DNA of 33,542 nucleotides from Deltaproteobacteria bacterium. Its GTDB lineage: Bacteria; Desulfobacterota; Syntrophia; Syntrophales; UBA2210. Shown here one piece after another: positions 10,865-13,650 of this stretch. Made by a program: the position numbers and the translations under genes. The stretch spans positions 1 to 33,542 of the forward strand of contig JAPLJO010000114.1 of NCBI GenBank assembly GCA_026388515.1, written 5' to 3'. Every line of letters starts with the position of its first letter. Position 1 is the first letter of the stretch. A model generated the notes under the pieces. That model worked only from the letters and a program-made list of their open reading frames with translations. It had not been told where the DNA came from and did not search any database.

Positions 10865-11928
10865 GCGCCATATTCAAGCTCACCACGTGGGGCGAATCAC
10901 ATGGTCCCGCCGTCGGGGCAGTGATAGACGGCTGCCCGCCGGGGATTTTCCTCACTGAGGCGGAGATCCAGGCCGAACTTGACAGGCGGCGGCCGGGCAC
11001 GCTCTCCTCCGGCTCGCCCAGAGAAGAAGAGGACACCGTGGAAATTCTCTCCGGCACATTCAAAGGTGTCACCACTGGAACGCCGATTGCACTCATGATA
11101 CGAAACCGGGACGCGAAGAGCTCCGACTATGAAGACATGAAAAACATCTTCAGGCCCGGACACGGGGATTACACCTATTTCAGGAAGTACGGCATGCGTG
11201 ATCACCGTGGCGGCGGGCGCGCGTCGGGACGCGAGACGGCGGCCCGCGTGGCGGCGGGGGCCATCGCACGGAAAGTGATTGCGGAAAGCGGCATTCACGT
11301 CATCGCCTATACGAAGGAACTAGGCGGCATTGCGGCGGAGACACTTGATCTCGCGGAGAAAGAAAAAAACCTCCTCCTCTGCCCCGATCCGAAGGCAGTA
11401 CCCCTCATGGAGGCAAAACTCAAGGAAGCGCGGGAAAAAGGCGACACGCTGGGGGGCATCGTGGAGATTGTGGTGACGGGATGCCCGGCGGGACTGGGGG
11501 AACCTGTTTTTGATAAGATGGATGCGGATTTTGCAAAAGCCCTCATGAGCATCGGCACCGTCAAGGGAGTTGAAATCGGCGCCGGTTTTGATGCCTCGCG
11601 CATGACGGGCTCCACATGCAACGATCCCCTCACCTCCGAGGGGTTTCTCACCAACAACGCGGGCGGAATACTTGCAGGCATCACGAACGGCGCGGACATT
11701 ATCCTGCGTGCCGCCTGCAAACCGATACCATCCATCTCGCTGCCGCAGCAGACCATGGACACCGAGGGAAACCCTGCCACCATCAGCATTTCAGGCCGGC
11801 ACGACATATGCGTCATTCCACGCATCATCCCCGTCTGCGAGGCAATGGTGTGCCTGGTACTCGCAGATCATCTCCTTCGCCAGCGGGCACTTAATAAAAA
11901 TATTGACAGCAGCGAAAAACCCTGTTAG
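10846..11928 (+). CDS. aroC: Chorismate synthase
   Basis: MSGNTIGAIFKLTTWGESHGPAVGAVIDGCPPG, RRPGTLSSGSPREEEDTVEILSGTFKGVTTGTPIALMIRN, RPGHGDYTYFRKYGMRDHRGGGRASGRETAARVAAGAIA, GITNGADIILRAACKPIPSI. ORF opens at 10840. Confidence 0.97.
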   Translation: MSGNTIGAIFKLTTWGESHGPAVGAVIDGCPPGIFLTEAEIQAELDRRRPGTLSSGSPREEEDTVEILSGTFKGVTTGTPIALMIRNRDAKSSDYEDMKNIFRPGHGDYTYFRKYGMRDHRGGGRASGRETAARVAAGAIARKVIAESGIHVIAYTKELGGIAAETLDLAEKEKNLLLCPDPKAVPLMEAKLKEAREKGDTLGGIVEIVVTGCPAGLGEPVFDKMDADFAKALMSIGTVKGVEIGAGFDASRMTGSTCNDPLTSEGFLTNNAGGILAGITNGADIILRAACKPIPSISLPQQTMDTEGNPATISISGRHDICVIPRIIPVCEAMVCLVLADHLLRQRALNKNIDSSEKPC

Positions 11929-11931
11929 TCG
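11903..11931 (+). promoter_or_regulatory. Candidate internal promoter for the trp half of the operon
   Basis: TTGACA (11903-11908) inside the last codons of aroC, 17 nt spacer, then TAGTCG (weak -10), ~31 nt upstream of the Trp leader ATG. Confidence 0.35.
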
Positions 11932-11961
11932 GGTGCAGCATACAGCAACGGGAACGTCATA

Positions 11962-12036
11962 ATGATTTCACAATTCAGCATAAAGAATAACTGGTGGTGG
12001 TATCCGGACATACTGAAGGGGTTCGTCCACCGCTGA
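11962..12036 (+). CDS. trpL: Trp leader peptide (attenuator): MISQFSIKNNWWWYPDILKGFVHR
   Basis: Short ORF with three consecutive TGG codons, located between aroC and trpE and followed by two competing hairpins. Confidence 0.88.
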   Translation: MISQFSIKNNWWWYPDILKGFVHR

Positions 12037-12054
12037 TCTTTACCGTCAATGCAT

Positions 12055-12094
12055 AAAAGGCCGTGGGGAATCTCCTGAATCCCCACGGCCTTTT
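12055..12094 (+). promoter_or_regulatory. Trp attenuator 1:2 hairpin
   Basis: AAAAGGCCGTGGGGA-atctcctgaa-TCCCCACGGCCTTTT, 15-bp perfect stem. Confidence 0.85.
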
Positions 12095-12123
12095 ATATTT
12101 GTACCATCATAGGGATTAACATG

Positions 12124-12153
12124 AAAAGGCCGTGAGTCATCACGGCCTTTTTT
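12124..12153 (+). terminator. Trp attenuator 3:4 terminator hairpin
   Basis: AAAAGGCCGTGA-gtca-TCACGGCCTTTTTT, perfect 12-bp stem with T-run directly upstream of trpE. Confidence 0.88.
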
Positions 12154-12171
12154 ATTGGCGAAAGGAGCACT

Positions 12172-13650
12172 ATGTACTACCCGTCACTCAATGAATTTAA
12201 AACTCTTGCCACGCCGGGACGCATGGTTCCCGTCTTCAGGGAAATCCTCGCCGACATGGAGACACCCGTCTCGGCCTTTCAGAAACTCGCAGGAAAACAA
12301 TATGCCTTTCTCCTCGAAAGCGTGGAAGGCGGGGAGAAATGGGGCCGCTATACATTTCTCGGCGCGGACCCGAGAATGGTCCTCACGGTGCGGGGAACGA
12401 AGGTGCTCATACGGGAACGGGGCAGGACCCGATCGTACGACCACGACGGGCAGCCGCTCGCGTTCCTGAAAGAAATCATCGAGCGGCACACTCCTGTCCA
12501 GGTGTCCGGACTTCCCCGGTTCTACGGCGGCGCCGTCGGATATTTCGGTTACGATATGGTGAGATATTTCGAGCGGCTTCCCGCCCATGCGACAGGCTCG
12601 CCGGTGACCGATGACGCAGTATTTCTCGTTACCGACACACTCATCATCTTCGATAACGTGCGACACACCATCAAGGTGGTCGCATGTGCATTTGTAAATG
12701 ACGGTGACGATACGGAGAGCCTGTACCATGATGCCACCCGGAGCATCGACGGCATGGCACGTCTTCTCATGCGTCGGAAGGCCATCGCGGGACGCCGTGA
12801 GGAGACTCCGAGGCTCCCGTCTTTTACGGCCAATATGTCCCGCTGGGAATATACCAATATCGTCGCACAGGCAAAAGAGTACATTGCCGCCGGCGATATC
12901 ATCCAGGTGGTGCTTTCCCAGCGTTTCACGGGAACATCCCCCGCGCCTGCGCTCGATCTCTACCGTGCGCTCCGCTTCATCAATCCATCGCCCTACATGT
13001 TCTTTCTGAAACTGGGCCGCCTCACCCTCATCGGCTCGTCACCGGAGGTCATGGTGCGGCTCGAAGAGGGAGTTGTTGAGTTGAGACCCATTGCCGGCAC
13101 ACGACGACGCGGCGGGAGCGAACAGGAAGACAGGAAACTCGCCTGCGACCTTCTGCAGGACCCCAAGGAACGGGCCGAGCACGTCATGCTCGTCGATCTG
13201 GGAAGAAACGATCTGGGAAGAATAGCCCGCACCGGCTCCGTGCAGGTAACGCAACTCATGGCAGTGGAGCGCTACTCCCACGTGATGCATCTCGTCTCCA
13301 CCATCAGGGCGGAACTCGCCGCCGGGAAGGACTTCACCGATGTCATCAGGGCAACATTCCCGGCAGGCACGCTCTCGGGAGCGCCCAAGATCAGGGCCAT
13401 GGAAATCATCGACGAGCTGGAGCCGTCCGGGAGGGGGCCCTACGGCGGCGCCGTGGGATACATCGGATATTCGGGCAACATGGATCTGTGCATCACCATA
13501 AGAACCATGGTGCTCGAACGCGGCATCATACACATCCAGAGCGGGGCGGGCATCGTCGCCGACTCCGATCCCGACTCGGAGTACGAAGAAACGAAGAGCA
13601 AGGCACAGGGACTCATACAGGCCGTCCAGATGGCGGCATCAGGCCTGTAA
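12172..13650 (+). CDS. trpE: Anthranilate synthase component I
   Basis: GAVGYFGYDMVRYFERL, AKEYIAAGDIIQVVLSQRF, PSPYMFFLKLG, IGSSPEVMVRLEEGVVELRPIAGTRRRG, HVMLVDLGRNDLGRIARTGSVQV, TFPAGTLSGAPKIRAMEIIDELEP, GGAVGYIGYSGNMDLCITIRTM. Confidence 0.97.
   Translation: MYYPSLNEFKTLATPGRMVPVFREILADMETPVSAFQKLAGKQYAFLLESVEGGEKWGRYTFLGADPRMVLTVRGTKVLIRERGRTRSYDHDGQPLAFLKEIIERHTPVQVSGLPRFYGGAVGYFGYDMVRYFERLPAHATGSPVTDDAVFLVTDTLIIFDNVRHTIKVVACAFVNDGDDTESLYHDATRSIDGMARLLMRRKAIAGRREETPRLPSFTANMSRWEYTNIVAQAKEYIAAGDIIQVVLSQRFTGTSPAPALDLYRALRFINPSPYMFFLKLGRLTLIGSSPEVMVRLEEGVVELRPIAGTRRRGGSEQEDRKLACDLLQDPKERAEHVMLVDLGRNDLGRIARTGSVQVTQLMAVERYSHVMHLVSTIRAELAAGKDFTDVIRATFPAGTLSGAPKIRAMEIIDELEPSGRGPYGGAVGYIGYSGNMDLCITIRTMVLERGIIHIQSGAGIVADSDPDSEYEETKSKAQGLIQAVQMAASGL

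Follow-up and report, generated by a model that had tools for sequence, protein, structure and literature searches.

A tryptophan leader with two predicted terminators in series before trpE, and related leaders across Desulfobacterota

The region between aroC and trpE in a deltaproteobacterium of the order Syntrophales probably encodes a ribosome-mediated tryptophan attenuator, composed of six RNA segments and including two intrinsic terminators in series. The stretch of DNA analysed (33,542 nucleotides, hereafter the window) contains, by NCBIfam assignment, the neighbouring genes aroF, aroB, pheA, aroE, aroA, an aroK-like gene, aroC, trpE and trpG, and the attenuator element sits between the aroC stop codon (11926-11928) and the trpE start (12172). 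In the terminating state, segments would pair as 1:2, 3:4 and 5:6, and in the read-through state as 2:3 and 4:5. The features of the element are as follows.

11903..11931, + strand: candidate sigma-70 promoter lying across the aroC stop codon, TTGACA-17-TAGTCG and a TGn motif upstream of the -10
11950..11953, + strand: possible Shine-Dalgarno sequence of the leader ORF, GGGA, from sequence reading; weak
11962..12036, + strand: leader ORF, MISQFSIKNNWWWYPDILKGFVHR and a stop codon, from translation; relatives have W-run leaders in the equivalent place
11992..12005, + strand: segment 1, the Trp codons UGGUGGUGG and the next bases; 12-bp helix 11993-12005:12019-12031 in the ribosome-free fold
12017..12034, + strand: segment 2, the final leader-ORF codons (GGGGUUCGUCCACCGC); partner of segment 1 or segment 3, with covariation
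12053..12076, + strand: segment 3, 5' arm and loop of hairpin A, from folding and inverted repeat
12077..12101, + strand: segment 4, 3' arm of hairpin A and T tract, from inverted repeat
12053..12101, + strand: hairpin A with T tract, predicted first intrinsic terminator and primary attenuator; -33.4 kcal/mol, T run conserved in relatives
12123..12135, + strand: segment 5, A run and 5' arm of hairpin B; 11-bp pairing with 12084-12094, 4:5 covarying over 100 leaders
12140..12156, + strand: segment 6, 3' arm of hairpin B and T tract, from inverted repeat and conserved T run
12123..12156, + strand: hairpin B with T tract, predicted second intrinsic terminator; -20.8 kcal/mol
12164-12167, + strand: Shine-Dalgarno sequence of trpE, GGAG
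12172..13650, + strand: trpE, first gene past the attenuator (TIGR00564 trpE_most, score over the cut-off)

The first-pass annotation had described a Trp leader with a 24-aa ORF and three consecutive Trp codons, and translation of 11962-12036 confirms this, placing WWW at 11992-12000. A short ORF with tandem Trp codons, its translation being predicted, is accordingly found 5' of a trp gene, as in ribosome-mediated Trp attenuators. Folding of the region far exceeds that of dinucleotide shuffles (z = -5.8, 0/200). An inverted-repeat search resolved hairpin A (12053-12096; arms 12053-12072/12077-12096, 20 nt, 95% complementary), hairpin B (12123-12152; arms 12124-12135/12140-12151, 12 nt, 100% complementary), and a cross-pairing between the A 3' arm and the B 5' arm (12084-12094/12124-12134, 11 nt, 100% complementary). 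Within the window AAAAGGCCGTG is confined to these four arms, with 0.03 occurrences expected by chance and four reached in no shuffle, while TGGTGGTGG has 3 copies against 0.25 expected, which by itself is weak evidence. Two features absent from the first-pass annotation complete the anatomy, namely the T-rich tract TTTTATATTTG, which also ends hairpin A (12091-12101), and the 12-bp pairing of the Trp codons (11993-12005 side) with 12019-12031 in the fold without a ribosome. A simple terminator scan of the window picked up neither hairpin A nor hairpin B. The GGCCGTG stem pattern of hairpin B has no second site in its own genome; as a generic repeated terminator, GGCCGTG..CACGGCC was rejected, having 1 site in that genome and being found in 41 genomes mainly as these same leaders.

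If the growing transcript is folded as far as 12080 and the Trp codons are masked, the result is a 16-bp 2:3 helix (12017-12034:12059-12076) that links the last leader codons to hairpin A (5' arm and loop), while folding with the ribosome absent yields 1:2. The Trp codons hence lie in a segment that rivals segment 3 for segment 2, and the predicted 2:3 antiterminator is mutually exclusive with the T-tailed 3:4 hairpin, both as in Trp attenuators. Because the alternative partner of segment 2 is the 5' side of hairpin A together with its loop, hairpin A is the predicted primary attenuator terminator and hairpin B the predicted second one.

In the proposed mechanism, when charged tRNA-Trp is ample translation of the leader would run on to the stop codon, the ribosome would sit on segment 2, and hairpin A (3:4) would terminate transcription; polymerase leaking beyond hairpin A would then encounter hairpin B (5:6). 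When tRNA-Trp is scarce, the ribosome would stall at the WWW codons and hide segment 1, allowing 2:3 to pair ahead of the synthesis of segment 4; segment 4, so released, would pair with segment 5, both terminators would fail, and trpE would be transcribed. Were translation absent, 1:2 would form, and with it both terminators. From the structures we infer termination at both hairpins, Trp as the signal, and a relay acting in time. At -33.4, hairpin A of the window greatly exceeds 2:3 (-17.6) in stability and prevails in every state of the full-length fold, so the relay must be kinetic, with the order of synthesis decisive. Over the Syntrophales leaders, mean duplex energies are near balance (2:3 -23.7 and 4:5 -17.2, versus 3:4 -22.0 and 5:6 -20.3). 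An A run is placed before B and not before A, as the relay requires (p 8e-10).

The comparison with related genomes that the first-pass annotation had proposed shows the arrangement to be conserved in about 110 of them. TrpE of the window was used to reach relatives, whose upstream regions share the same build, and a covariance model built from 27 leaders found matches in 153/155 genomes of the order Syntrophales, about 110 of them strong and located at trp leaders. A W-run leader followed by hairpins A and B precedes trpE in nearly every readable relative; both hairpins were resolved in 97 Syntrophales trp leaders, while 15 leaders went unparsed by the automatic hairpin parse, and L140, whose second hairpin was parsed differently (GCCAGGG stem), was excluded from the statistics. 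The T run after hairpin A and a run of 5-7 T immediately 3' of hairpin B are each conserved in nearly all relatives.

Covariation is observed in all four helices, 2:3, 3:4, 4:5 and 5:6. In most families the segment 2 stretch GGAGGGGUYUGYCYGC encodes EGFVCR/HR; in family f5 (L024, L028, L105) it gives GGVCLLP, and in f9 (L087, L088) GRGLRAAG. Because the motif is kept across three reading frames, on the basis of these explicit examples (an automatic frame count being unreliable), segment 2 is, as judged from the alignments, constrained as RNA and not as peptide. With one leader per family in 25 families, its own 2:3 pairs bind better than shuffled pairs (z -7.7, 0/10000), and among 100 aligned leaders 2:3 double changes number 67 versus 29.9 expected from shuffles (67 being reached in 0/500), although such shuffle tests are inflated by the relatedness of the sequences. 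Helices 3:4 and 5:6 are together paired in 98% of cells. For 4:5, in the same 100-leader alignment, 92.1% of cells are paired and covariation is over all 500 shuffles. Helix 3:6 is a fitting control, because it would pair equally well were A and B mere copies; there 75.1% of cells are paired and covariation is not over the shuffles. Reduced to one leader per family (25 families), 4:5 reaches z -4.3 and 3:6, at z -3.8, exceeds chance too, with 4:5 better than 3:6 in 19/25 families (p 0.019). At the variable core position in Syntrophales, 4:5 is A-U in 66, G-U in 17, G-C in 5 and A-C in 0 (mismatches 0/88), whereas 3:6 has C-A mismatches in 9/88. In L019 the core pair of hairpin B is itself C-A, yet the B 5' arm pairs with the A 3' arm. 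Outside the order the arms change together, the A 3' arm CCAUGGCC with the B 5' arm GGCUAUGG in f28, GCCUGCGG with CCGCAGGC in L217, and GUCCAUGGC with GCUGUGGAC in L225. The resemblance of A to B is partly implied by the conservation of both 3:4 and 5:6; the 4:5 relay is well supported, though not proven, by sequence.

The main competing explanation, which is possible but unlikely, keeps hairpin A as the sole Trp-controlled attenuator (1:2, 2:3, 3:4) and treats B as an uncontrolled back-up or as part of a tandem double terminator. Tandem terminators are common, Trp leaders with one hairpin exist, and A and B are related through 3:6 as well as 4:5; however, an uncontrolled strong terminator right before trpE would shut the operon when it is required, and the covariation in 4:5 but not 3:6 of the 100-leader alignment, the position of the A run before B, and a nearly invariant B stem that these genomes nonetheless do not use as a generic terminator all argue for coupling of the two hairpins. 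Hairpin B might instead serve mainly to stabilise the trpE message at its 5' end or as a site where that message is processed. Its position just 5' of the trpE ribosome-binding site would suit such a role, but the conserved run of T directly after it is typical of intrinsic terminators, and we consider this explanation very improbable.

Least probable of all, and already contradicted by the anatomy, is the four-segment trpL architecture of the first-pass annotation, in which 12055-12069/12080-12094 would be the protector and 12124-12151 the only terminator, with a ribosome on WWW masking 12055-12069. Every pairing that it named is present (hairpin A, hairpin B and the 11-bp cross-pairing), but the segments were misnumbered. 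The footprint of a ribosome halted on WWW reaches some twelve bases downstream, here to about 12012, and the segment taken as the first, which begins 18 nt beyond the stop codon, is 54 nt away from the last Trp codon and too distant to be masked. The supposed protector itself forms a hairpin whose T run is conserved, and the conserved system of Trp codons, segment 2 and segment 3 lies upstream: the true segments 1 and 2 (11993-12005 and its partner 12019-12031) had been missed, and segment 2 covaries with the 5' side of A. What had been called the 2:3 antiterminator is the 4:5 helix of the A 3' arm with the B 5' arm, and instead of four segments there are six, with two predicted terminators. 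The broader reading of the region as a ribosome-mediated Trp attenuator before trpE is nonetheless supported.

The same annotation placed the attenuator inside a supra-operon, where it would uncouple trp expression from the upstream shikimate genes. The location between aroC and trpE holds, and uncoupling is plausible, but the account is incomplete given a probable promoter of trp itself. In the window TTGACA at 11903, with TGTTAGTCG, lies across the last aroC codons; its -10 match is poor, and a promoter scan of the window did not pick it up. TTGACA-17-TA is found 76-106 nt 5' of the Trp run in 93/100 Syntrophales leaders, the window copy being at 89 nt, and because of this conserved spacing to the Trp codons, a promoter of its own is probable for trp besides aro read-through, which is then probably not its sole source of transcription. 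The C-terminal tail of AroC, NKNIDSSEKPC, extends past the end of the family profile and is encoded by the trp promoter region (window 11896-11928).

The closest known system is the enteric his attenuator, in which A:B, C:D and E:F form in the off state versus B:C and D:E in the on state (PMC4046918, PMC10989985). The Salmonella/E. coli system shares the relay logic, the stalling of a ribosome on a run of cognate codons, and the six segments (PMC4046918, PMC10989985), and the present element likewise has three hairpins for the off state and two alternative helices for the on state. In his a U run is described after E:F only, whereas here 3:4 and 5:6 are both T-tailed, giving two predicted terminators; with its conserved T run on hairpin A, the element departs from the his pattern in which the last hairpin alone is the terminator. 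The off and on helices are therefore already known from his, and it is the terminator at the middle hairpin that differs, along with the amino acid, the sequence and the taxa; the element has no Rfam His_leader match. E. coli trpL (Rfam Trp_leader) shares the short ORF, the tandem Trp codons over segment 1, the 2:3 antiterminator, the 3:4 terminator and the position before trpE, but lacks segments 5 and 6, the 4:5 helix and the second terminator. Rfam Trp_leader gave no match at the gathering score, nor at E <= 10 in 11900-12200, a low threshold giving chance matches only. No T-box or other Rfam riboswitch was found at the leader, the only Rfam matches in the window being one tRNA and a TPP riboswitch (532-622, - strand, 75.2 bits). 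The rimP leader of some Gammaproteobacteria shares tandem terminators and a possible antiterminator, but belongs to a different gene, and the accessible part of that report describes neither a leader peptide nor a relay between the hairpins (PMC2965389). The mgtCBR leader of Salmonella also combines two attenuators, but uses two ORFs and senses two signals independently, in contrast to the one ORF, one signal and two coupled terminators proposed here (PMC3641672). A putative attenuator before the Desulfovibrio vulgaris aro-trp supra-operon was listed in a 2005 table (PMC1173090); the open literature on Trp attenuators in Deltaproteobacteria or Syntrophus yielded no description of the present structure, though a mention in older papers is possible.

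Beyond the order, a phylum sample gave covariance-model matches in 142/297 genomes, Trp leaders and tandem hairpins occurring in many of the families, and weaker matches are further members with the same 2:3 logic (GGUCUGCCC with GGGCAGACC). Phe-run leaders (such as FFSFFSFF) with tandem hairpins precede livK-type ABC transporter operons in L061 (734-877, G000:C136, the window's own genome), L063, L072, L074 and L078, the L061 leader being less regular than the others, and Phe-run leaders precede an acyl-CoA ligase gene in L064 and L068. An acyl-CoA ligase gene also follows the transporter operon in L061 and L063; the combination of Phe leader, transporter and ligase suggests that an aromatic acid is taken up and activated as a source of Phe. 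Branched-chain (LVLVVVL-type) leaders with tandem hairpins precede ilvB (L066, L067, L069, L157, L160), where the B stem GCCGC matches the A 3' arm GCGGC.

Hairpin B is not universal, since some Trp-run leaders before iorA have a single hairpin (L200, L211, L216), and a Trp-run leader precedes a phenylacetate-CoA-ligase-like (PaaK-like) gene in L225, these genes being named by sequence reading; such leaders hint that Trp is made from indoleacetate. W leaders also precede DAHP synthase (L183, L202, L206, L213, L222) or a second trpB (L071, L197, L198, L209, L215), and Tyr-rich leaders an aroA'-like gene (L218, L226). In L075 (G124:C28), the gene behind a WWWW leader with tandem hairpins probably encodes an outer-membrane or secreted protein and is not a trp gene.

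Taken together, it is somewhat more probable than its negation that these leaders form a phylum-wide and undescribed class of attenuators for Trp, Phe and branched-chain amino acids in Desulfobacterota, in which one stalled ribosome would disarm two terminators, through 2:3 and then 4:5. Such a domino class would provide tighter off-states than a single terminator while still relying on one sensor, and offers a compact and testable case of serial termination control by one ribosome acting on two coupled terminators. The element, conserved but undetected by Rfam, would serve several amino acids in a phylum with little-studied gene regulation, and it may flag operons that the cell counts among its sources of Phe, Trp or branched-chain amino acids. 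Among these are transporter, aryl-CoA-ligase and iorA operons, which would be difficult to place in biosynthesis by other means.
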